Shown: piece after piece, positions 6,684 through 58,262 of the stretch
How the letters are laid out: every line of letters starts with the position of its first letter
How positions within the stretch are numbered: position 1 is the stretch's first letter
Assembly: GCF_000378965.1 (NCBI RefSeq)
Contig: NZ_KB900536.1
Location: 2,162,052-2,226,051 of the forward strand
Direction of reading: 5' to 3'
Length of the DNA stretch: 64,000 bases
Source of the DNA: Thioalkalivibrio thiocyanodenitrificans ARhD 1
GTDB taxonomy: Bacteria; Pseudomonadota; Gammaproteobacteria; Ectothiorhodospirales; Ectothiorhodospiraceae
The notes under the pieces: generated by a model
What the model was told of the DNA's origin: nothing
Databases searched by the model: none
What the model saw: the letters and a program-made list of their open reading frames with translations, nothing else
Position numbers and translations under genes: made by a program

Positions 6684-7324
6684 TGTGGATCCTCCCGGAT
6701 GGTGTAGAAATCGGAAAAGCCGATGACTTCCCCCTGCATTTCACGGACCCCGTGCATAAGGGTCTCGAATAGGAATTCGCCGTAACTGGGTTCGCAGCCC
6801 ATGCGGTAGACAGGCCCCGTTTCCACCCGAAGCCAGACGCCCACGCCGGCCACGCGGGTGTAGAGCAGCGCGTCGTCCGCGGCGGAGAGATCCAGCGCGC
6901 AGAACTCCGCCATGAGCATGGCGGCGTGTTCGCCGCCAAGAGCGATCTCCTGATCGTCGCGCGCGAGTATGCGGGTGCCCTTCTCCAGGCCTTCGGGCAG
7001 CGGGCCGAGCCGCTCGGCGAGACCCCCGTCGGGACCGTCGTGGAGCAGATACTCGGCGTTCCCGGTGCGCGCGACGAAACAATCCCGCCCAAGGTCCGGC
7101 AGATCGCGGCAGACGAACCACTCGTCCGGCACGGTCAGGCCGCGGCCCGCGAGCCAGCCGGCGGCATCGCCGCCCTTGACCAGCACCCGGGTCAGCGGAC
7201 TCAGGTCGGCGAGCCAGGTTCCCGGCATGCGCGGCGCCTGGAGCGGTGTGGTCATCTCCATGGCCTTGCCCCAACGAAAACCGTTTCGGGGAAGGATGTC
7301 GTGGGCGGGGCTAAGACGGGTCAT
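6680..7324 (-). CDS. mgdD: N-methylglutamate dehydrogenase subunit D (sarcosine oxidase gamma-like)
   Basis: The 214-residue protein matches the gamma subunit of heterotetrameric sarcosine oxidase, a GcvT-like fold without its own catalytic centre. It starts at 7324 within an ATGA overlap with mgdC. This family is poorly conserved, so assignment rests partly on position between mgdC and gmaS and on the YLLHDGP and [12 protein letters not shown] segments. It would be the structural fourth subunit of the cytoplasmic dehydrogenase. Confidence 0.85.
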
Positions 7325-10230
7325 GCGCTCACCTCCCGCACCTCCGGTTCCCGGACCGTTTCCGGTTTCTGCCGCAGGCCCTCCGGGTCGTAGAACGGCG
7401 TGGGCACCACGGGCGCGTCGATCATCACCGCGCCGGCCACGCGGATGGACAGCGTGTCGGCGCTCTCGAGGACGCGATCCACCATGGCCAGCCCCACCCA
7501 GGCATCCAGCGACGGGCTGTAGCCGATGCTGGTGACGCGCCCGGCGATGTCGCCGTCGTGGATCACGAGATGGCATTCCTCCGGCACCGGGCCAGAATGA
7601 TTGCCCGGCAGCCGGAAACCCAGCAGGCGGTTGGACGCGCGCTCCTTCAGGATCTCCAGGCTGCGCCTGCCCTGGAAGAACGGCTTGTCGAACTTCACCG
7701 CCCAGTTCATATTGGCGTCGAAGGGGCTGGAGGTGCCGTCGGTATCCTGCCCCACGATCAGGTGCGCCTTCTCCAGGCGCAACTGGCGCTGGGCCTCCAC
7801 GCCGAAGGGCCGGATGCCGTACGCGTCGCCCGCCGCCATGAGCGACGCCCATACCTGGCGCGCCTGTGCGGCGGGTACGTGTATCTCGTAACCCAGTTCG
7901 CCCACGAAGCCCACGCGGAACAGCCATGCGGGCACGCCGGCCACCGCCGCCCGGCGCGCGCCCAGATAGGGAAAGGCCTCCTGCGAGAGATCCAGATCGG
8001 TGAGCGGCTCCAGGACCTCCCGCGTCAAGGGGCCGGCGATGTTCATGGAGGCCATCTGGTGGGTGCGGTTGATCACGTCCACGTTCAGTTGCCACTCGCC
8101 GATCAGGCGCTGCATGTGGCGGAAGATGATCTCGGCGCCGGTAGTGGTGGTCGTCACATAGAAATGGTCATCGGCCCAGCGGGCGCACACGCCGTCGTCG
8201 ATGATCACGCCGGCCTCGTCCACCATGAGCGCGTAGCGGGTCCGGCCGATCTTCACGGTGGAAAGCTTCAGCGTGTAGAGCTGATCCATGAAGCGGGCGG
8301 CATCGGGGCCGATGACCTCCACCTTGCCCAGCGTGGAGACATCCACCATAGCCACGCCCTCGCGTACCGCAAGCACCTCGGCGCGGATGGCCTCTTCCTC
8401 CGGACCGGGGCCGTAATACCTGGGCCGCAGCCAATGTCCGGCGGGCATGAACACGGCGCCGTGCGCCTTGTGCCAGCCGTGCATGGCGGTGCGCCGCTCC
8501 GGACGCAGGCGGCGCCCCGCCAGATGGCCCATGGGCACCGGATGATGGAACGGGCGCGCGGTGGTGGTGCCGGTCTCGTCGATGTCGCGCCCGTTCAGGC
8601 GCGCGAGGATGCGCACCCCGTTCATGTTGGCGTGCTTGCCCTGGCTCGGACCCATGCCCACGGTGGAGTAGCGCTTGAGCAGTTCGATGTTGTCGAAGCC
8701 CTCGGCGGCGGCACGCTCCAGGTCCTTGAGCTGCAGGTCCTCGTCCAGGTCCACGAACACCTTTCCTTTTGGATGCGGGAACACGGGCCAGGGATGGGAC
8801 ATGCGTTCGCTTCCACGGCCGGGGCGCGCGTGCTGCCTGCTGTCCCTGCCCAGATACGCCAGTGCCTCGCCGGCCGCGGCCATGCCGTCGTCCATGCGCG
8901 CCTGAGCGCCGAACACGCCGTTGACCCGCCCGCAGGCAAACACGCCGGGCGAAAGCGCCTCCGGGACAAACTGGCCGGGCGTCCCGGCGAACACCATGCG
9001 CGCGCCGGACTGATACAACAGGGCGGCGGCAGGCGCATAGCCCACGGACATGAGCAGGCCGTCGCAGTCGATGCGCCGGGCGGTGTCCGGCCTCGCGCGG
9101 CCCTCGCCGTCCAGTTCGCAGACCGTCACCCCGTTCAGGAGGCCGTTGCCTTCCGCGCTGTAGACGGCGCTGCGTCCGAAAACGGGGATGGCCGCCGCCT
9201 GAACATCGGCCAACAGGTCGCCCCGTGTCCCGGGATCCTCCAGATCCACCAACGCGCGGATGGCGACGCCGGCGGCCTGCAGTTCCAGCGCCGTGCGATA
9301 GGCATCGCCGTTGCCGGCCAGGATCACCGCGGACTCGCACGGGGCGACACCGTAGCGATGCACCAGGCGCCGGGCCGCGCTTGCCAGCATCACGCCCGGG
9401 AGATCGTTGTTGCGAAACACGGCGGGCTGCTCGTAGACGCCGCCGGCGACGATGACCGCGCGGGCGCGCAGGCGGATCAGACCTTCGGGGGTTACCAGTG
9501 GGATGTAATGGTCCGCGTACCAGCCGGCGGCGACCGTGTCGGTCAGGATCGTGAGGTTTTCCAGTGCATGCGCCCGGCCCAGCAGTTCGTCGCACTGCAG
9601 ATTGGCCTCCTGATCGTTGAAGCTGCCGCCGGGGCGCGCATTCTCGTCCGCCAGCCAGACACTGGCGCCGGCCTCGGCAGCCGTGACGGCCGCGGACAGA
9701 CCGGACGGGCCCGCGCCCACCACCAGCAGATCGCAGAAAGCGTGCCGTGCGGGCGCGCGCCTGTCGTCGGGCCACGCGGCGTCCACGCGCCCCAGACCCG
9801 CCATCCGGCGGATGCGGTTCTCCCAGAAGGGAAGCAGCGCGCGGGGTCGGTGGAAGGTCTTGTAGTAGAAGCCCACCGGCAGCATGGGCGAGAGACGGTC
9901 CATGATGCGCCCGCGGTCCTTTTCCAGTCCGCCGGCCGTGTTGACGGCGGCGAGCTTCATGCCGTGCTCGACCGTGGTGACATCGCCGCGGATGTTGAAG
10001 TCGGTCTCCGACTGGAGCAGGACGTTGGTGTCGTGGTTGGCCGCCGAGAACACGCCCCGCGGACGGTGGTACTTGAAGCTGCGCCCCAGCACGCGCACGC
10101 CGTTGGCGAGCAGCGCTGACGTGATGGTGTCGCCCGCGAAGGCCGTGTACTTGCGCCCCTCGAAGGTGAAAGGCATCGTGCGCTCCCGGTCGATCCATTC
10201 CCCAGGCTGGGGCGGCAGGCGCCTAGCCAT
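7321..10230 (-). CDS. mgdC: N-methylglutamate dehydrogenase subunit C (sarcosine oxidase alpha-like)
   Basis: The 969-residue protein has the layout of the sarcosine oxidase alpha subunit. An N-terminal 2Fe-2S-ferredoxin-like fold contains FAGDTITSALLANGV. An NAD/FAD-binding domain has VVGAGPSGLSAAV at about 171-183. A C-terminal aminomethyltransferase (GcvT) domain from about residue 580 binds tetrahydrofolate and passes on the one-carbon unit. It begins at 10230, overlapping mgdB by eight bases. Substrate assignment to N-methylglutamate comes from the flanking gmaS and mgs genes. Confidence 0.92.
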   Translation of the reverse strand: MARRLPPQPGEWIDRERTMPFTFEGRKYTAFAGDTITSALLANGVRVLGRSFKYHRPRGVFSAANHDTNVLLQSETDFNIRGDVTTVEHGMKLAAVNTAGGLEKDRGRIMDRLSPMLPVGFYYKTFHRPRALLPFWENRIRRMAGLGRVDAAWPDDRRAPARHAFCDLLVVGAGPSGLSAAVTAAEAGASVWLADENARPGGSFNDQEANLQCDELLGRAHALENLTILTDTVAAGWYADHYIPLVTPEGLIRLRARAVIVAGGVYEQPAVFRNNDLPGVMLASAARRLVHRYGVAPCESAVILAGNGDAYRTALELQAAGVAIRALVDLEDPGTRGDLLADVQAAAIPVFGRSAVYSAEGNGLLNGVTVCELDGEGRARPDTARRIDCDGLLMSVGYAPAAALLYQSGARMVFAGTPGQFVPEALSPGVFACGRVNGVFGAQARMDDGMAAAGEALAYLGRDSRQHARPGRGSERMSHPWPVFPHPKGKVFVDLDEDLQLKDLERAAAEGFDNIELLKRYSTVGMGPSQGKHANMNGVRILARLNGRDIDETGTTTARPFHHPVPMGHLAGRRLRPERRTAMHGWHKAHGAVFMPAGHWLRPRYYGPGPEEEAIRAEVLAVREGVAMVDVSTLGKVEVIGPDAARFMDQLYTLKLSTVKIGRTRYALMVDEAGVIIDDGVCARWADDHFYVTTTTTGAEIIFRHMQRLIGEWQLNVDVINRTHQMASMNIAGPLTREVLEPLTDLDLSQEAFPYLGARRAAVAGVPAWLFRVGFVGELGYEIHVPAAQARQVWASLMAAGDAYGIRPFGVEAQRQLRLEKAHLIVGQDTDGTSSPFDANMNWAVKFDKPFFQGRRSLEILKERASNRLLGFRLPGNHSGPVPEECHLVIHDGDIAGRVTSIGYSPSLDAWVGLAMVDRVLESADTLSIRVAGAVMIDAPVVPTPFYDPEGLRQKPETVREPEVREVSA

Positions 10231-10498
10231 CGGCCGCCTCCCTCATGGCCTCGGCCACGGTCATGGTGTGCAGCAACTCGTCCTTCATCGTGTCGCGCTC
10301 GGCCACAAACCACATGCCCGTGGGCGCATGGCACCACCACTCCCTCTGTACCCCGGGGGCACCGTCCCGGTGGAAGACGTAGTGGCACCATTCGGTATCC
10401 GAACAGGCGTCCGGATCCGGCATGGGGCGCCAAAGGCCGCCGTAGACGAACTCGGACGCGGGGCGGGTGCCGACTTTGGGGCAGTGGATGAGTTTCAT
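10223..10498 (-). CDS. mgdB: N-methylglutamate dehydrogenase subunit B (sarcosine oxidase delta-like)
   Basis: The 91-residue protein resembles the small zinc-binding delta subunit of heterotetrameric sarcosine oxidase: an N-terminal CPxxGxRxxxEFxYGG segment, then WCHYVFHRDG and a WWCH motif. The second cysteine of the usual CPxCG pair is replaced here (CPKVG). The start at 10498 gives MKLIHCPKVG. The same frame stays open upstream into the repeat block, but no upstream start is credible. It is the first gene after the 770-bp repeat region that splits the operon. Confidence 0.88.
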   Translation of the reverse strand: MKLIHCPKVGTRPASEFVYGGLWRPMPDPDACSDTEWCHYVFHRDGAPGVQREWWCHAPTGMWFVAERDTMKDELLHTMTVAEAMREAADG

Positions 10499-10506
10499 TG
10501 GGTTAA

Positions 10507-11258
10507 CCGCGACGCAAAGGCGCCAAGACGCAAAGGGACGCAAAGGTAATTGATGTAAAAGCAGAAGCTGGCATAGGGCTATAACGGCCACAGCAACAAA
10601 ATATGGCCACAGCAAACGAACAAACATTCATTAACTTTGCGTCCCTTTGCGTCATGGCGTCTTTGCGTCGAGTGCCTTGCTTTTCAAACTTACAAACCTA
10701 CCGCGGCGCAAAGACGCAAAGGCGCGAAGGGACGCAAAGATGATCGGTGTAAAAGCAGAAGATCGCATGGGGCTGTAGCGGCCACAGCAACAGAGCCGAA
10801 CCACCGCGCTCAAACAAGCATTCATTAACTTCGCGTCCCTTTGCGTCATGGCGTCTTTGCGTCGAGTGCCTTGCTTTTCAAACTTACAAACCTACCGCGA
10901 CGCAAAGACGCTAAGGCGCGAAGGGACGCAAAGATGATCGGTGTAAAAGCAGAAGATGGCATAGGGCTGCGACGGCCACAGCAACAGAGCCTGGCCATCG
11001 CGCTCAAACAAGCATTCATTAACTTCGCGTCCCTTTGCGTCATGGCGTCTTTGCGTCGAGTGCTTTGCTTTCTGAACTTACAAACCTACCGCGACGCAAA
11101 GACGCTAAGACGCAAAGGGACGCAAAGTAGATGAATAGTTGTTTGAGCACTGGAGCCACGGTTCGCTACACCTGCGGCCGAAGCAGTGTGTCTTCTCTTG
11201 CTTTTACCTCCATCGTCTTTGCGTCCCTTTGCGTCTTTGCGCCTTCGCGTCGAATGGT
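10507..11258. repeat. 194-bp tandem repeat block inside the N-methylglutamate operon
   Basis: The motif CCGCGACGCAAAG (CCGCGGCGCAAAG in the second copy) recurs at 10507, 10701, 10895 and 11089, an exact 194-bp period. Copies two and three are nearly identical and the outer ones are more diverged. One end of each unit is tandem GACGCAAAG words and the other is their complement (CTTTGCGTC), so each unit can fold on itself. The block fills 10499-11268 between mgdA and mgdB. Only repeat-derived open frames of 65 codons are present. Confidence 0.95.
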
Positions 11259-11268
11259 TTTAAAACCC

Positions 11269-12507
11269 TCAATGCCCAACCGAAGCCGCCCCCCGCTCGC
11301 CGACCAGTTCGAAGCGGTCGAAGCGGGCGAGGCTGAAGGGTTCGATGAGTTCGTGGTCGCGGTCGTTGGCCACGGTCCAGGCCATGGTCTTGCCGGAGAC
11401 GGGCGTGGCCTTGAAGCCCCAGGTACCCCAGCCGGCGTCGATGTAGAAACCGTCGATCGCCGTCCTGCCCATGATGGGTGCGAAGTCCGGCGTCATGTCC
11501 GCCATGCCCGCCCACTGGCGCATCACTTTGGCGCGCGACAGGAAGGGGAAGAGATCCAGCATCTGGTCGGCCAGCCCCTCCACGAAGTCCAGCGTGGAGC
11601 GCGTGGAATGCAGGATGGCGGGATCCAGCGCCGCGCCCATGACCAGCTCGCCGCGCGAGGACTGCGAGACGTACACGTGCAGGCTGCCCGAGACGATGAT
11701 GGTATCCAGCCACGGCTTCATGGGTTCGGTCACGCAGGCCTGCAGGGGATGGATGACGATCGGCGTGGTGATGCCCACCATGTCGGTGATGCGCGGCGTG
11801 GAGCCGGCCACCATGGAGATCACCCGGCCCGTCTTCACGAAGCCCTTGTCGGTCTCGACACCGGTGACCCTGCCCTGCTCCACGCGGATGCCGGTGACCC
11901 GGGTCTTCTGGTGGATCTCCACGCCGCGCCGGTCGGCGCCGCGCCCGTACCCCCAGGCCACGGCATCGTGACGCACCACCGCGCCGGGTACGTGGTAAAG
12001 GGCGCCCAGCACCGGATGCTCGCCGCCGCAGTCCAGGTCCAGCATGGGCACGGCGTCGGCGATGAACTCCCGGTCCACCAGCTCGCTGTCGATGCCGAAG
12101 TGCTTGTTCACCTCGGCGCGCCAGCGCATGGTGCGCACGGCGGCATCCGTGTGGGCGAGGGTGAAGTGGCCGCGCTCGGAATAGAAAATGTTGAGGTCGA
12201 AATCCTCGGCAAGATCCCTGAAAAGACGGATGCTCTCGTCGTAGAACTTCACGCCCTCGGGGGTGAGGTAGTTGGAGCGCACGATGGTGGTGTTGCGCCC
12301 GGTGTTGCCGCCGCCGATGTAGCCCTGCTCCAGCACCGCCACGTTGGTGATGCCATGATCCCGGGCCAGGTAGTACGCGCAGGCGAGGCCGTGCCCGCCG
12401 CCGCCGATGATGACCACGTCGTAGCTGTCGCGAAGGGACTTGGGCGTTGTAAAGAAACGCGGGTCCGGCGCATCGCTGAACGCGTTCTTCAGCAGGCGCA
12501 ACGGCAT
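11269..12507 (-). CDS. mgdA: N-methylglutamate dehydrogenase subunit A (sarcosine oxidase beta-like)
   Basis: The 412-residue FAD-dependent oxidoreductase (DAO family) has the dinucleotide-binding motif DVVIIGGGGHGLACAYYLAR at residues 30-49. Its C-terminal segment APIMGRTAIDGFYIDAGWGT closes the FAD site. It corresponds to the catalytic beta subunit that oxidises the N-methyl group. The ATG at 12507 overlaps the purU stop by one base, so the two are translationally coupled. The other dehydrogenase subunits follow after the repeat block. Confidence 0.92.
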   Translation of the reverse strand: MPLRLLKNAFSDAPDPRFFTTPKSLRDSYDVVIIGGGGHGLACAYYLARDHGITNVAVLEQGYIGGGNTGRNTTIVRSNYLTPEGVKFYDESIRLFRDLAEDFDLNIFYSERGHFTLAHTDAAVRTMRWRAEVNKHFGIDSELVDREFIADAVPMLDLDCGGEHPVLGALYHVPGAVVRHDAVAWGYGRGADRRGVEIHQKTRVTGIRVEQGRVTGVETDKGFVKTGRVISMVAGSTPRITDMVGITTPIVIHPLQACVTEPMKPWLDTIIVSGSLHVYVSQSSRGELVMGAALDPAILHSTRSTLDFVEGLADQMLDLFPFLSRAKVMRQWAGMADMTPDFAPIMGRTAIDGFYIDAGWGTWGFKATPVSGKTMAWTVANDRDHELIEPFSLARFDRFELVGERGAASVGH

Positions 12508-24321: not shown

Positions 24322-25890
24322 ATGACCCACACAGATCCCGGCGGGCACGGCCTGCGGACAGTCCCGGAGCGTTGGCTCGGCGTGGCGCTGGGCGTCGCGG
24401 TGTTTGCCGCGTTCTTTTTCAATCTGCACGGTTTCCCGCTGTTCGACCTGGACGAGGGCGCATTCAGCGAGGCGACCCGCGACATGCTGGCGCGGGGAGA
24501 CTACATCGCCACCTACCTGTATGGCGAGCCGCGTTATGATAAGCCCATCCTCATCTACTGGCTACAGGCGGCCTCGGTCAGCCTGTTCGGGCTGAACGAG
24601 TTTGCCCTGCGCCTGCCCTCGGCGCTGGCCGCCACGGGCTGGATGCTCGCGCTCTACGCGTTCGCGGCCCGCGTATGCGACCGGCGCACCGGACTGCTGG
24701 CGGCGATCATCGGCGCCACCACGCTCGAGGTCGGCGTCATCGGCAAGGCGGCCATCGCCGACGCGCTGCTCAATCTCATGATTGCCGCGAGCCTGTTCTC
24801 CATCTATCTGCACTACCATGACGGACGGCGGCGATGGATCTACGCGGCCTTCCTGTGCATGGGCCTCGGCTTTCTCACCAAGGGCCCGGTCGCCGTGGCC
24901 ATCCCGTTTGTCACGAGCCTGCTGTTCTTCGCATTCAAGGGGCGCATTCGCGACTGGCTGCGCGCCGTGTTCAACCCGCCGGGCATTGCCCTGTTTCTGC
25001 TCATCGTGCTGCCCTGGTATCTGGCGATCACGGTCCGGGAGGGCCCCGGTTTTCTGCTGGGTTTTCTGCTGGAACACAACCTGGGCCGCTTCCGGGAACC
25101 CATGGAGGGCCACAGCGGACCGATCTTCTATTACCTGCCCGTACTGCTGATCGGCACCCTGCCGTGGACTGCGATTCTGATCGCCGCCCTGTGGCGCGCG
25201 CGCGGGCAACTGCGCGACGACCTGGCGCTCTTCCTGCTCATCTGGTTCGGCTTCACATTCGTGCTCTTCTCCCTGGCAGCCACCAAGCTGCCCCACTACC
25301 TGCTCTACGGCATGACGCCGCTGTTCATCCTCATGGCCCTGGAACTGCCCCGGATGCGATCCGCATTCTGGTCGGCACTGCCGGCGGCGCTGTTCTTCGC
25401 CTTCATGCTGGCCTTCCCGGCCATCGTCGCCGCGATCAAGCCCACGGTGCGCGATCCGTTCACCGTCGCCCTGCTCACCGACGTGGACCGGCACTTCGGA
25501 GTGCTCTGGTACGGCGGCTTCGGCATCGCCCTTGCCGTCAGCCTGTGGTTCATGTTCGAGCGGCGCATTCACACCGCCTGGCGCATGATCGCGCTGGGCG
25601 TGCTGGTCACGGTGGGCGTGACGGGCCTGCTGCTGCCGACCGTAGCCGCTGTGCAGCAGGGGCCCGTTCGCGATGCGGGCATGGCCGCGCGGGACAGGCC
25701 CGAAACGGTGGTCATGTGGGGCCTGAACAACCCCAGCTTCAATGTCTACGCCGATCGGCACGTGGAACGCCGCGAGCCCCGGCCCGGGGAAGTGGCGGTA
25801 ACCCGCTTCAACCGGCTGGACCCTGGTGTCGATTACGAGGTGCTTTTCGAGCGCAACGGGGTGATGCTGGTGAAGGTGGCGGAGGAGTGA
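24322..25890 (+). CDS. ArnT-like glycosyltransferase (GT39/GT83)
   Basis: The 522-residue integral membrane protein has about a dozen helices and the catalytic acidic pair in FDLDEGAFSEATRDML (Asp44-Glu45), first periplasmic loop of the PMT/ArnT superfamily. YDKPILIYWLQ and LTKGPVA are also typical. It would move a sugar from undecaprenyl phosphate to lipid A or another acceptor on the periplasmic face. It is divergent from the GT2/flippase pair, which could supply its donor. Confidence 0.88.
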   Translation: MTHTDPGGHGLRTVPERWLGVALGVAVFAAFFFNLHGFPLFDLDEGAFSEATRDMLARGDYIATYLYGEPRYDKPILIYWLQAASVSLFGLNEFALRLPSALAATGWMLALYAFAARVCDRRTGLLAAIIGATTLEVGVIGKAAIADALLNLMIAASLFSIYLHYHDGRRRWIYAAFLCMGLGFLTKGPVAVAIPFVTSLLFFAFKGRIRDWLRAVFNPPGIALFLLIVLPWYLAITVREGPGFLLGFLLEHNLGRFREPMEGHSGPIFYYLPVLLIGTLPWTAILIAALWRARGQLRDDLALFLLIWFGFTFVLFSLAATKLPHYLLYGMTPLFILMALELPRMRSAFWSALPAALFFAFMLAFPAIVAAIKPTVRDPFTVALLTDVDRHFGVLWYGGFGIALAVSLWFMFERRIHTAWRMIALGVLVTVGVTGLLLPTVAAVQQGPVRDAGMAARDRPETVVMWGLNNPSFNVYADRHVERREPRPGEVAVTRFNRLDPGVDYEVLFERNGVMLVKVAEE

Positions 25891-25926
25891 AGGGGGAAGG
25901 GGGAAGGGGGAAGGATGAAGGTTGAA

Positions 25927-27239
25927 GGGACTGTAATTAAATCTGTGTAACTGCTTGTTTCTGTTTATGGTAGCTGAAACGGGAGGCAAGCAGATGCAAG
26001 AACAAGAGAAGAAGGAGTTGGCGGCGCGCCTGGCCAAGGGGATCAAGACGGAGAAGGATCTCAGTGATTTCAGCGCTGAGCTGATGAAGCTGGTGGTGGA
26101 AACCGCGCTGGGCGCGGAGATGGAGGCGCACCTGGGCTATGCCAAGCACGACCCGGCTGGGCACCACAGCGGCAACAGTCGCAACGGATTCAGCCGCAAG
26201 ACGCTCAAGGGCAGTCACGGGGAGGTCGAGATTGCCACGCCCCGGGATCGCAACGGCAGCTTCGAGCCGCGGCTGGTGGGCAAGGGCCAGACGCGGCTGA
26301 CACAGTTTGATGATCAGATCCTGGCGCTCTATGCCCGGGGCATGAGCACGCGCGACATTGTCTCGGCCTTTGAGCAGATGTACGGGGCGCAAGTGTCTGC
26401 GAACCTGGTCTCGCGGGTCACCGAGGCGGTGATCGAGCAGGTTGAGGCCTGGCAGAACCGGGTGCTCGACGAGGTCTATCCCATTGTTTTTCTGGATTGT
26501 GTGGTGCTCAAGGTGCGCCAGGACCGGCGCATGGTGAATAAATCGATGTACCTGGCGCTGGGCATCAACACCGAGGGCGAGAAGGAGTTGCTGGGGCTGT
26601 GGCTGGCCGAAACCGAGGGGGCGAAGTTCTGGCTCTCGGTGCTCACCGAGCTTCAGAACCGGGGGGTCAAGGAGATCTTCATCGCCTGCGTGGACGGGCT
26701 GAGCGGCTTCCCCGATGCCATCGAGGCGGCCTTCCCCCATGCGCGGGTGCAGCTGTGCATGGTGCACATGGTGAGAAACAGCGTGCGCTACGTCTCCTGG
26801 AAGGAGCGCAAGGCGGTGTGCCGGGACCTGCGCCAGATCTACCACAGCGCGAGCGCCGAGCAGGCCGAGGCGCAGCTTGCTGCCTTTGAGGCCGTCTGGG
26901 GCGAGCGCTATCCCAGCATTGGGCCGATCTGGCGCCGGCACTGGGCACAGGTGATCCCGCTGTTTGATTATCCGCCCGAGATCCGCAAGGTGACCTACAC
27001 CACCAACGCCATCGAATCGCTCAACAGCGTCATCCGCAAGGCCACCAAGAACCGGCGTGTCTTCCCCAGCGATGCCTCGGCGATGAAGGTGGTATTCTTG
27101 GCCGTGCAGAGCGCCTCAAAGCGCTGGACCCGGCCCATCCAGAACTGGAAGGCCGCCATGCATCGATTCGAAATCGAACATGGCGAGCGAATCCGGGCCA
27201 CTCAGGGATAGGCAGTTACACAAAAAGAATTACAGACTC
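25927..27239 (+). mobile_element. IS256-family (Mutator-type) insertion sequence, complete
   Basis: The 1313-bp element has imperfect terminal inverted repeats (GGGACTGTAATTAAATC at the left, GAGTCTGTAATTCTTTT read inward at the right, both continuing into GTGTAACTGC). It is flanked by an 8-bp target duplication AGGTTGAA at 25919-25926 and 27240-27247. It carries one intact transposase. It landed in the GAAGG-type simple repeats after the ArnT-like gene. Confidence 0.93.
25994..27211 (+). CDS. IS256-family transposase
   Basis: The 405-residue DDE transposase starts at the ATG behind GGGAGG, giving MQEQEKKELAARLAKG. The acidic residues lie in VFLDCVVLKV, IACVDGLSGFPDAIEAAF and NAIESLNSVIRK, and the conserved Cys-His pair is in QLCMVHMVRN. 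All are present and uninterrupted, so the element may be active. A second in-frame start 13 codons upstream lies close to the left inverted repeat and is less likely. Confidence 0.93.
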   Translation: MQEQEKKELAARLAKGIKTEKDLSDFSAELMKLVVETALGAEMEAHLGYAKHDPAGHHSGNSRNGFSRKTLKGSHGEVEIATPRDRNGSFEPRLVGKGQTRLTQFDDQILALYARGMSTRDIVSAFEQMYGAQVSANLVSRVTEAVIEQVEAWQNRVLDEVYPIVFLDCVVLKVRQDRRMVNKSMYLALGINTEGEKELLGLWLAETEGAKFWLSVLTELQNRGVKEIFIACVDGLSGFPDAIEAAFPHARVQLCMVHMVRNSVRYVSWKERKAVCRDLRQIYHSASAEQAEAQLAAFEAVWGERYPSIGPIWRRHWAQVIPLFDYPPEIRKVTYTTNAIESLNSVIRKATKNRRVFPSDASAMKVVFLAVQSASKRWTRPIQNWKAAMHRFEIEHGERIRATQG

Positions 27240-27260: not shown

Positions 27261-27318
27261 CTTACGCCTATCGCCTATCGCCTTACGCCTTACGCCTTAC
27301 GCCTACCACCTATCGCCT
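27261..27318. repeat. Low-complexity CTTACGCC/TATCGCC words
   Basis: Tandem 7-8 base words (TTACGCC, TATCGCC) fill the gap between the IS and comM. They resemble one arm of the word-repeat elements seen elsewhere in the window, but no complementary arm is visible here. Confidence 0.6.
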
Positions 27319-28924: not shown

Positions 28925-29082
28925 AAGGCAGTGGCAAGTGGCAAGTCTCAAGTGGCAAGGGAACCCACCCTCACCCCGGCCCTCTCCCTGAGGGAGAGGG
29001 AGTAAAGCCCCCTCCCCCGCTTGCGGGGGAGGGTTGGGGAGGGGGCCCTTGCCACTTGAGACTTGCCACTTGCCACTGCCTT
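28925..29082. repeat. Inverted-repeat element with 37-bp perfect arms
   Basis: The left arm (28925-28961) and right arm (29046-29082) are exact complements built from GGCAAGT words. Two G/C-rich nested hairpins fill the centre (CCCTCTCC-CTGA-GGGAGAGGG and CCTCCCCCGCTTGCGGGGGAGG). It separates the convergent comM and cytochrome genes and could stop transcription from both sides. Confidence 0.92.
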
Positions 29083-35951: not shown

Positions 35952-36130
35952 CGGCCCCGACGCGCCGCGGGGGCGGTGACGCGAAGCCGCGCTTCCGCCC
36001 GACTCACGGGGGACCGGCCGTCAGTTGGCAGCAGAACGTGCGTCATGGGCGTCCATTGATAGCAGAAGTCGCGCCGCAAAACCCGTCGTTCCTGTGCCTG
36101 CTGTTGAGTTCGAAGTTCAAGGTTCAATGT

Positions 36131-36235
36131 TCAAGGTTCAAAGTTCAAAGGGAGAGGCGGGAACCGAATGCGGCTTCTCACCCGCGAGTCCGTTGCATTT
36201 CCTTTGAGCATTGAACTTTGAACTTTGAACCTTGA
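36131..36235. repeat. Inverted-repeat element of GTTCAAA words
   Basis: TCAAGGTTCAAAGTTCAAAG (36131-36150) is the exact complement of 36216-36235. Further GTTCAA words extend the left arm to about 36107. It sits between the crcB promoter region and the CPBP protease gene. Confidence 0.9.
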
Positions 36236-40938: not shown

Positions 40939-41295
40939 TCGGGCGCAAGGACCTTGGGCGGGATTGTCTAGTTCACGGACCCCGATCCCGGACCTGATGT
41001 GTCTCGGGAAGTAAAGGCGGATTTGCCACAGAGGGCACAGAGGAAAAGACCTGAACGACTGCAGATCAGGCGCATCATCATCCCGCCTGCAAAGCCCCGG
41101 CCCATCGGCAACGCCTCGCTTTCGCATTAAACCTCTGTGACCTCTGTGCCCTCTGTGGCTGATCATTTCTGATACTGAAACCTCTGTGGCCGACCCTGGC
41201 CGATCCTGAATGGCTTCACGCCCCATTGCATCCTGCGCGGTTCGCCGTGCCAATCGCCTGTTTATTCCCGCACCGCCCGGGCCTAATATGGACCC
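40939..41295. other. Gene-free interval between DUF924 gene and lutA
   Basis: It holds the CACAGAGG inverted-repeat element (41025-41159) and an additional half-copy (CCTCTGTGGCC, near 41182). No coding region is supported. Confidence 0.7.
41025..41159. repeat. Inverted-repeat element of CACAGAGG words (copy 1)
   Basis: GCCACAGAGGGCACAGAGG (41025-41043) is exactly complementary to 41141-41159. The 97-bp centre has no gene. Confidence 0.92.
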
Positions 41296-42077: not shown

Positions 42078-42210
42078 TTTGCCACAGAGGTCACAGAGGT
42101 CACAGAGGTCACAGAGGCAAGAGACAACAACCCGGCTGAGCACCTCCCACATGTGGATGTATACAAGCGCGCTTCATGACATTGTTTTTCTCTGTGCCCT
42201 CTGTGGCAAA
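42078..42210. repeat. Inverted-repeat element of CACAGAGG words (copy 2)
   Basis: Left arm TTTGCCACAGAGGTCACAGAG (given in two parts: TTTGCCACAGAGG and TCACAGAG, 42078-42098) and right arm 42190-42210 pair with one mismatch. The left side has extra GTCACAGAG words. It separates lutA from lutB inside the operon. Confidence 0.92.
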
Positions 42211-45179: not shown

Positions 45180-45509
45180 TCAACGACCCGATGCCGGCTC
45201 CGGAACTTCCGACTCGAAGGGGTTGAGCACGACAACCTGATCCAGGGTCTGACCATGCTGCAAATCTTCACTCAGCAGATAGCGGCATCCTGCCCGGCTT
45301 GCCGCCGCGACGATCAGTGCGTCCCACCATGAGAGATGATAACGGGCTTCCAGTGTCCAGGCCACCTCCAGGACCAGGCTGTCGGCAGACACTGGCCGCC
45401 AGGACATGAGGTCTCGGACATCCGAACGCGCTGACTCCACATCCATTCCCGGTGTCAATTTTCTGGTAACGACCTGGTAGTACTCCTGCAACACCTGATA
45501 GCTAAGGAA
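45180..45509 (-). pseudogene. PIN-domain (VapC-like) toxin, 5' end lost to a RAYT unit
   Basis: Homology starts at LSYQVLQEYYQVVTRKL and continues through the catalytic region YHLSWWDALIVAAA and RYLLSEDLQHGQ to the stop. The first roughly 40 residues with the initial Asp are missing. The frame breaks exactly where the 54-bp hairpin of the neighbouring RAYT unit begins (45509). A GTG at 45494 could still start a 104-residue fragment. No antitoxin gene remains beside it. Confidence 0.75.
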
Positions 45510-45562
45510 ATCAAGGGGTCAGAGTTGTTGAAGTTGGTTTCAACAACTCTGACCCCTTGATT
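45509..45562. repeat. 54-bp RAYT-associated hairpin (copy A)
   Basis: Perfect 24-bp arms (AATCAAGGGGTCAGAGTTGT plus TGAA) around the six-base loop GTTGGT, at the 3' side of the RAYT gene. Confidence 0.93.
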
Positions 45563-45569
45563 CGTTCTG

Positions 45570-46298
45570 TCATGTTTGGTGGGGACACGCCGGCTTGCGC
45601 TGGCGATACGCCTTGCTGCGCCGATCACCCCCATGGTTCAGTCGTGTCACCGGTCGGCGCAGTACCGCTTCGACCTCCTTCCGAAAGCGCTTGCCACCCA
45701 GAATCGTTCCGGCATGTGTCGCGTCCCGGATTTCCCGCAGGGTTCGAGATTCAAGGTGGCCGTCGAACAATGCCCTGTAGGCCGCCTCCCGCTCCGCAAT
45801 GGTCGGCCCCAATGCACGATAGATGGGATGCGGCGTAGTCAGGTTGTCTGCGAGGCCTCGGGCATTGCACCCGTAACTTGACCAGGAGTACTCACCGGGG
45901 TGCGCCACCATCCCGGCGCGCACCGGATTGAGTTCGATATAGCGGCTGCATACCAGCAGGTAGTTCTCGGAATCCACCACCACCGACTTATAGCGCCCTT
46001 CCCATAACGTACCCGTTCGACCGTGACGCGTATTCACATAGCGGACGTAGCGCCGGCCAACGGCCTGCATCATGCGCGCAGGCCCCTGCTCATCCTCGGG
46101 GGTCAGAAGCAAGTGCACGTGGTTGGTCATCAGCACGTAGGCATGAATGGCGCAGCCATGGCGCTTGGCAGCATCACGCAGGTCGTTCAGGTAACGCGGA
46201 TAATCGCAGCGCTCAAAGAAGACATCCCCACGATTATTGCCACGCTGGATGATATGTAACGGCTGACCCGGGATCACGATCCGTGGCATCCGTGCCAT
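45570..46298 (-). CDS. REP-associated tyrosine transposase (RAYT)
   Basis: The 242-residue Y1 transposase has IIQRGNNRGDVFF, the HUH motif TNHVHLLL and the tyrosine-bearing region YVRYVNTRHGRTGTLWEGRYKS. The family start MARMPRIVIPGQPLHIIQRG is present. It is intact and bounded by matching hairpin sequences at 45509-45562 and 46415-46441. The same hairpin occurs alone at 54089, as expected for a RAYT that moves or spreads its own REP. The unit lies between a truncated toxin gene and the pilE stop. Confidence 0.92.
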   Translation of the reverse strand: MARMPRIVIPGQPLHIIQRGNNRGDVFFERCDYPRYLNDLRDAAKRHGCAIHAYVLMTNHVHLLLTPEDEQGPARMMQAVGRRYVRYVNTRHGRTGTLWEGRYKSVVVDSENYLLVCSRYIELNPVRAGMVAHPGEYSWSSYGCNARGLADNLTTPHPIYRALGPTIAEREAAYRALFDGHLESRTLREIRDATHAGTILGGKRFRKEVEAVLRRPVTRLNHGGDRRSKAYRQRKPACPHQT

Positions 46299-53356: not shown

Positions 53357-53395
53357 GATGCGCTCCTCGTCCGTGAGGGGGGATTAGAATAAAGG

Positions 53396-53430
53396 ATGAA
53401 GGATGAAGGATGAAGGATGAAGGATAAAGG
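53396..53430. repeat. Simple GAAGGAT repeat
   Basis: Four to five tandem GATGAAG words follow the operon's 5' end, the same words that flank the IS at 25.9 and 27.2 kb. Confidence 0.85.
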
Positions 53431-53523
53431 GTGAGCCGGGGGCTCCGCAGGTCGGGAGGCCCACCTTCTCATGGAGGCGGTGTCACGCGGGGGCCTCCCG
53501 ATCGCCGACTGCCGGCCGGGGAA

Positions 53524-54052: not shown

Positions 54053-54088
54053 ATGGGCCTAGCGGGCAGAAGGTGCAACAAGCGAAAG

Positions 54089-54142
54089 AATCAAGGGGTC
54101 AGAGTTGTTGAAGCGAACTTCAACAACTCTGACCCCTTGATT
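54089..54142. repeat. 54-bp RAYT-associated hairpin (copy B)
   Basis: Same perfect 24-bp arms as at 45509-45562, but loop GCGAAC. It is a solo copy, 8.5 kb from the RAYT gene. Confidence 0.93.
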
Positions 54143-54168
54143 CGGCGGGCCAGGCGTGGTTGTGGAGA

Positions 54169-57322: not shown

Positions 57323-57410
57323 GTAGGTTGGGGTGAGCAAAGCGAATCCCAACACGGGGCGTGAATCCCGGCCAATCCTGTTGGGGTTCGCGTTGCTCAC
57401 CCCAACCTAC
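57323..57410. repeat. Intergenic hairpin with 32-bp arms (GTAGGTTGGGGTGAGC type)
   Basis: Arms 57323-57354 and 57379-57410 are complementary with two mismatches; a partial third copy (GAGCGAATCCCAACA) lies at 57303. This repeat type is common in bacterial intergenic DNA. Confidence 0.9.
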
Positions 57411-58193: not shown

Positions 58194-58234
58194 ATTGGGA
58201 AGTGCGAAGCAAGGTTCTTCCTGCCTCCTGCCTT

Positions 58235-58262
58235 CTACTTCCTACTTCCTACTTCCTACTTC
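58235..58262. repeat. Simple CTACTTC repeat
   Basis: Four tandem CTACTTC words between trmB and the uspA-like gene, running into the last codons of the latter. Confidence 0.85.

Follow-up and report, generated by a model that had tools for sequence, protein, structure and literature searches.

A hairpin array between mgdA and mgdB of Thioalkalivibrio thiocyanodenitrificans and its probable kinship with hairpins that carry GxxExxY genes

Why should the genes for two subunits of what appears to be one enzyme be parted by a block of tandemly repeated DNA? The question arises from a 64,000-nt stretch of the genome of Thioalkalivibrio thiocyanodenitrificans ARhD 1 (hereafter the window), where such a block lies between two sarcosine oxidase-like genes, which we take to be mgdA and mgdB. 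Profile searches place them in an operon on one strand that encodes SoxB-like, SoxD and SoxA-like subunits together with a type III glutamine synthetase (Table 1). Scores against the NCBIfam SoxB, SoxD and SoxA models lie below the cut-offs of those models, and the Pfam SoxD score lies above its own. The original reading of the genes was right in kind. The repeat block begins 7 nt upstream of the mgdB start codon (ATG, 10498-10496) and ends about 10 nt past the mgdA stop codon (11271-11269).

The block (10506-11258) consists of four hairpin units, three of them direct and the fourth, on the mgdA side, in register with the others but with its loop inverted. The predicted period of strictly 194 bp is confirmed by Tandem Repeats Finder (TRF; 10506-11127, 3.2 copies, 89% matches, score 978) as well as by the regular spacing of unit starts (10506, 10700 and 10894) and of the right-arm motif (10624, 10818, 11012 and 11206). 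The repeat is not, however, exact as had been claimed. Over 239 nt, copies two and three match the first at 87% and 86% identity, the loops of the three direct units are mutually 75-90% identical, and the loop of the fourth unit (u1, adjoining mgdA) is the reverse complement of the others, at 62-71% identity, although its arms remain in register. The unit arms, GACGCAAAG and CTTTGCGTC, are complementary and able to fold, each being made of four degenerate heptamers, C-R-C-R-R-A-G in most families, spaced 1-3 nt apart. The folding expected of these unit ends is borne out by the predicted energy of the junction RNA, -407 kcal/mol against a mean of -268 for 20 shuffles (z -16.6). At the threshold used, 15 arm pairs are found in the window and none in five first-order Markov shuffles of it; at Rfam gathering thresholds the whole window yields three tRNAs only.

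Table 1. Features of the mgd locus and related hairpins in the window.
Feature	Coordinates	Strand	Remarks
mgdC-like gene, sarcosine oxidase alpha family	7321..10230	(-)	profile matches
mgdB-like gene, sarcosine oxidase delta family, downstream of block	10223..10498	(-)	PF04267
Hairpin unit u4, mgdB-proximal	10506..10675	(.)	arms ~10510-10550 + 10630-10670
33-nt linkers between units	10671..10703, 10865-10897, 11059-11091	(.)	
Hairpin unit u3	10704..10864	(.)	arms 10704-10744 + 10824-10864
Hairpin unit u2	10898..11058	(.)	arms 10898-10938 + 11018-11058
Hairpin unit u1, mgdA-proximal	11092..11252	(.)	arms 11092-11133 + 11211-11252; loop inverted vs u2-u4 and vs u1 of congener G002
mgdA-like gene, sarcosine oxidase beta family, upstream of block	11269..12507	(-)	TIGR01373, 475 bits, below curated cut-off; PF01266
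Gene-less hairpin, CACAGAG arms	41025..41159	(.)	another arm family, like architecture
Gene-less hairpin, CACAGAG arms	42078..42210	(.)	

Comparison with relatives shows that the array is not ancestral, as judged from the sequenced junctions. Eighty mgdA loci were collected from named records and a recognisable mgdB lies downstream in 76. The two genes are separated by -1 to 60 nt in 75 of these 76 other loci and by 188 nt in one (L068, a metagenome-assembled genome titled Gammaproteobacteria, its MgdA 70% identical), where the gap holds a tandem-arm CACGGGG hairpin of its own, just after position 2784. The 60-nt gap of another locus, L070, contains a GGGTCAGACCC inverted repeat. Within the genus the picture is quite different: the genome of the window (G000) and all four congeners (G001-G004) have hairpins at this junction, four units in G000, two each in G002 and G003, and a single one in G001 and in G004; three kinds of arm can be told apart by eye. 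Unit number, for which a comparison of relatives had been proposed, is thus not identical but varies from one to four. The u1 loop of G000 matches the reverse complement of the u1 loop of G002 (90% identity; score 142, where shuffles reach at most 24), and u2 of G002 matches u4 of G000 at 91%; the array therefore differs between these two genomes both in the number of units and in the direction of one loop. No mgd loop of G001, G003 or G004 scores above the shuffle maximum against the G000 loops, a few lying at or just above the 95th percentile, and yet the 3' end of mgdA is there approximately 90-95% identical. As delimited, the ten junction loops of the five genus members measure 86-90 nt, though they are mostly unrelated in sequence.

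The mgd block has many relatives in its own genome. A search of G000 with the block returned 65 matches, the block itself included, many of which are paired arms, and 18 sites (e01-e18) were fetched and read. By eye their arms are alike and their loops mostly unrelated, and the arm ends (CCGCGACGC, AACGCA, CCACAG and similar) bear no GTAG tag. According to crude gene calls, none of the 18 is more than about 40 nt away from a stop codon; codirectional genes flank 14 of them, convergent genes four and divergent genes none, against a background of 64, 23 and 21 among 108. Similar structures occur in the window itself. Its two CACAGAG hairpins bracket a single gene, hairpins with other heptamer arms (CAAGTGG-like, TTCAAAG) occur at 28925-29082 and 36107-36235, and further direct arrays of period 7 (GAAGGGG, ACGCCTA, AAGGATG, CTTCCTA) at 25889-25929, 27261-27318, 53392-53434 and 58217-58262.

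One of the 18 sites, e09, carries a gene between its arms. The encoded protein belongs to the GxxExxY family (TIGR04256; PDDEXK_3, PF13366) of the PD-(D/E)XK superfamily and, from a reading of the open reading frames, its neighbours are presumably trpE and trpG. The arm type of the mgd block, CGACGCAAAG, is the same as that around the GxxExxY gene at G000:C1:1829489-1829839, and CACAGAG arms surround the genome's second GxxExxY gene. Some 7.7 kb beyond the end of the window there is a GxxExxY gene whose arms are of the CACAGAG type (G000:C1:2233726-2234070). Matches exceed the curated profile cut-off for the G000 genes, for 29 of 31 matches in the class and for all 16 in a search of the genus.

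The link between gene and arms extends well beyond this genome. GxxExxY is present in 19 of 143 genomes of the class, and 28 of the 31 matches could be compared with 89 control genes, namely 58 mgdA loci, 22 weaker relatives and nine Y1 transposase loci. Complementary tandem arms flank 22 of the 28 GxxExxY loci, as against none of the controls and one of 54 displaced windows. An earlier test with a narrower window had recovered 16 of 28; a wider window and a tandem threshold of 0.45 instead of 0.5, applied equally to cases and controls, produced the higher figure and left controls (0/89) and displaced windows (1/54) as they were. Six class loci lack arms by this rule, and within the genus 16 of 18 loci have them. 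On plasmids the gene is rare, being found with one query at E 1e-10 in three of 72,556 records, from Bacteroides, Sphingomonas and Bernardetia. Arms are visible by eye around GxxExxY in these three plasmid records and in one IMG/VR contig. In the Sphingomonas parapaucimobilis plasmid (L258) the GxxExxY gene, whose arms are CGCGAAG, lies between fabD and fabG. Five loci bore titles of other phyla, and their genomes yielded no GxxExxY gene.

In a GxxExxY alignment of 12 rows E71 and K73 are invariant and D61 is present in at least 90%; these are the PD-(D/E)XK residues, and nuclease activity is plausible on the strength of the conserved D, E and K. A predicted structure of the family member P0001 reached a pLDDT of only 39, PDB chains gave no match to the GxxExxY profiles at E<=1, and PADLOC and PHROGs gave weak matches only (E 0.005 and 0.003). 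In the literature retrieved by family name or accession, as far as its text was accessible, the family is named in passing and no description of its function or of a connection with hairpins was found.

The sequences of gene and arms correspond to a large extent. On a tree of 35 GxxExxY proteins, 31 of them with arm type assigned by eye, arm type changes nine times, compared to a shuffle mean of 21, and none of 5000 shuffles is as low. With near-duplicates removed (28 rows) the figures are nine against 19, again 0/5000, and for the 17 rows outside the genus eight against 11.1, with 17 of 5000 shuffles as low. Measured arm similarity is likewise correlated with protein similarity (Mantel r 0.57 over 30 loci, and 0.64 over the 18 loci from 13 genomes outside the genus; p 0.0001); both the shuffles and the Mantel tests correct for shared descent only in part, the outside-genus set being the cleaner. 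On these data arm sequence follows GxxExxY lineage, across genera as well. The pairing, though strong, is not one to one, since types F, C and K each turn up at more than one place, scattered over the tree of the proteins.

At the level of whole genomes, either arm pattern is present in 14 of the 19 GxxExxY genomes as opposed to 17 of the 124 others (p 2e-7), and tandem-heptamer arms of the CRCRRAG kind are seen in 31 of the 143 sampled genomes of the class. Among the 14 genomes with at least ten arm matches, six have no PDDEXK_3 match. One single-contig genome of this sort (G118) has arms only 39-64 nt apart, too close to enclose a gene, in 15 of 18 stretches (L260-L277), the other three being without a partner arm. 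The hairpins, then, can outlive the gene or do without it. In G003 and G004 there are gene-less hairpins whose arms are of type B (AACGCAAAG) or D (CCGCRGAG), and no GxxExxY gene with these arms was found in those two genomes.

How stable are the occupied sites? For the 18 sites of G000, both flanks could be located in 51 comparisons with G001-G004. A rule-based assessment finds the site occupied in 43 of the 51, against 5 of 67 junctions that are empty in G000 (5 of 44 where the gap is at least 60 nt); counts by eye are 48/51 and 10/73. Five of the eight cases missed by the rule show by eye a hairpin or, at one, an assembly break, and the remaining three, all in G001, do not. The occupants themselves are mostly dissimilar. 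Four comparisons show clearly the same element (similarity at least 0.6), nine are intermediate (0.28-0.54), so that some apparently exchanged elements may be old ones that have diverged, and the rest score 0.20 or less. By rough typing, only 10 of 49 typeable orthologous arms are of the G000 type, another arm family being usual, and there are intergenic sites at which a second species has repeats of quite another sort. That sites are shared is most simply accounted for if the permissive 3'-end positions are limited in number and are steadily invaded.

The clearest case of exchange is e09. By MgdA, G002 is nearer to G000 than is G003, but at e09 the G000 protein groups with that of G003, which has the same arms, and the G002 protein groups with one encoded at another site in G004 whose arms are those of G002. 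A single GxxExxY clade for the site is rejected (p-AU 0.002), as is a grouping of G000 with G002 (p-AU 6e-5). Since the proteins group by arms and not by site, the gene was exchanged there together with its arms, and in-place conversion of arms as a general cause of arm differences is disfavoured at this site. There is room for such conversion at e12, e17 and e05, where inner loop sequence is common to elements with different arms. Hairpins nested within hairpins of other arm families were noted by eye at L190, L193, L194, L201, L210 and G002:C28:10611-10931, an arrangement that also speaks for insertion. Neither a transposition event nor a duplicated target was seen, and among 12 cases there was no clean empty site, the flanks of filled and empty sites being too diverged. 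The suggestion of a recently expanded mobile palindrome is thus upheld as regards a dispersed hairpin family whose unit number and loop orientation vary among close relatives; movement as such was not seen.

The mgd block is probably, in our assessment, a local tandem amplification, with one member inverted, of a gene-less derivative of a hairpin element of the GxxExxY type, comparable to the REPIN/RAYT system but with another enzyme; that GxxExxY does the moving is something we infer. The GxxExxY protein would recognise its own arms as a hairpin or cruciform, and by cutting would bring about the spread of copies, both full and gene-less, to intergenic sites at 3' ends. Slippage or unequal exchange may then have multiplied the 194-bp units, and recombination between inverted arms may have flipped one loop. 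GxxExxY could nevertheless be a passenger. A broader proposal, for which we would claim somewhat less than an even chance, is that GxxExxY is a dedicated, lineage-matched class of PD-(D/E)XK enzymes that recognises tandem-heptamer hairpins and, in many bacterial phyla, moves or copies them, with or without their own gene, to intergenic sites at 3' ends; it would be a transposition system parallel to REPIN/RAYT on another enzyme fold that keeps re-colonising the same sites with new families.

The main competitor is a REPIN/RAYT-type or classical MITE system, in which a Y1 or DDE transposase moves the hairpins and the GxxExxY genes are passengers in permissive places. The hairpins are indeed REPIN-like in architecture and 3'-end placement, Y1 transposase profiles match nine times in G000, and some hairpin-rich genomes are without GxxExxY. 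However, none of the nine Y1 loci, those of G000 being the ones covered, has heptamer arms within 500 nt (11-base words). Three have repeated words at their flanks, all of other kinds (GGGGTCAG in two and GTAGGTTGGGG in one), and the correspondence of arm type with GxxExxY phylogeny also tells against this explanation, which we regard as unlikely. RAYT/Y1 as the mover is disfavoured by the want of matching repeats at those nine loci. The window contains GGGGTCAG palindromes and a GTAGGTTGGGG repeat as well as a match to a Y1 transposase (45509-45562, 54088-54143, 57323-57410 and 45933-46259), which fit published TIRtron/REP types.

Less probable again, and in our view improbable, is that selection keeps the hairpin as a regulator or terminator by which the MgdA:MgdBCD ratio is set, while its sequence drifts. 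All five genus members have junction hairpins, with loops of a narrow size range, and the junction RNA is very stable in G000 and also in G002 (z -10.3) and G003 (z -6.3). Stability is modest in G004 (z -2.8) and G001 (z -2.0), however, and neither promoter nor intrinsic terminator was found inside the block by consensus scan (for the latter, a GC hairpin followed by a T run), one terminator match of the scan lying outside it at 10330-10313. The compactness of 75 of the 76 junctions elsewhere, the variable unit number and the loops of G001, G003 and G004, unlike those of G000 beside a well conserved mgdA 3' end, also weigh against selection, as does the like turnover at most of the 17 other comparable sites. 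Differing unit numbers and three arm kinds in five genus members argue against a regulator that is conserved and sequence-specific. Congeners tolerate different hairpins here, and we see nothing that points to a selected role of the block in mgd. In the mgd mRNA the block would form a tolerated, highly structured spacer of 0.77 kb, and the lowered readthrough or altered subunit ratio originally envisaged, or a polar effect, is possible. Least probable, with a very small chance, is that arms arise in place by slippage and template switching at native quasi-palindromes such as terminators, with no mobile element, for although the e14 arm has one octamer more in G000 than in G001 and the inner terminator-like loop of e12 is common to G000, G002 and G003 although their arms there differ in part, identical arm sequences are met with at numerous unrelated sites and in further genomes, and gene and matching arms were exchanged as a unit at e09.

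Under the preferred reading of a GxxExxY-hairpin element, the array would exemplify such an element multiplying inside an operon for one enzyme. The pairing of arm sequence with GxxExxY lineage gives both arms and gene a testable role, and fixed sites with fast turnover of elements would help to explain why the intergenic regions of close relatives do not align. Among the top-listed literature matches, to which subscription papers contributed little, nothing was found that explains such heptamer arms, the listed matches to the heptamer words being unrelated.

Several known repeats invite comparison. The TAACTGA heptamer repeats of Beggiatoaceae, cyanobacteria and Bacteroidetes are also intergenic tandem heptamers, sporadic across phyla, but are nearly all direct arrays rather than paired inverted arms, and the text available mentions no linked gene (PMC4679880). 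CGTC REPs, as far as described in the accessible text, have stems of 8-9 bp and no linked enzyme (PMC3733652). As with MITEs in general, gene-less copies here have inverted ends in common with a gene-bearing relative, though the gene is GxxExxY and not a known transposase, and there is no conserved internal sequence, loops being by eye mostly unrelated between sites. The Porphyromonas MITE BrickBuilt, to judge from the portion of the paper available, is similarly intergenic with inverted ends and tandem repeats, in 19 forms in one genome; in our elements it is the arms that the tandem repeats form, and by eye the loops are mostly unrelated (PMC4596501). TIRtrons provide another parallel, a gene flanked by inverted repeats that also occur gene-less, but according to the available text they carry tyrosine transposases and several have the motif GGGGWSAS (PMC3733652).

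The closest system is that of REPINs and their RAYT (TnpA-REP) tyrosine transposases, as presented in the accessible parts of PMC3116915, PMC2817692 and PMC8266576. Common to both are short intergenic hairpins of two inverted arms, many gene-less copies and, for every family of hairpins, a linked gene that encodes a small enzyme. The arms described here are, in contrast, tandem degenerate heptamers, mostly 20-45 nt long, where REPINs are built from GTAG-tagged palindromes of 20-40 bp, and the partner is PD-(D/E)XK-like with its gene between the arms, where RAYTs are Y1/HUH enzymes. Of the two features that define REPIN/RAYT, a Y1 gene of their own accompanies the arms at 0/9 loci in G000 and the GTAG tag is absent. 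The hairpins, and the like arms around GxxExxY genes, suggest from their sequences a hitherto undescribed kind of bacterial mobile element.
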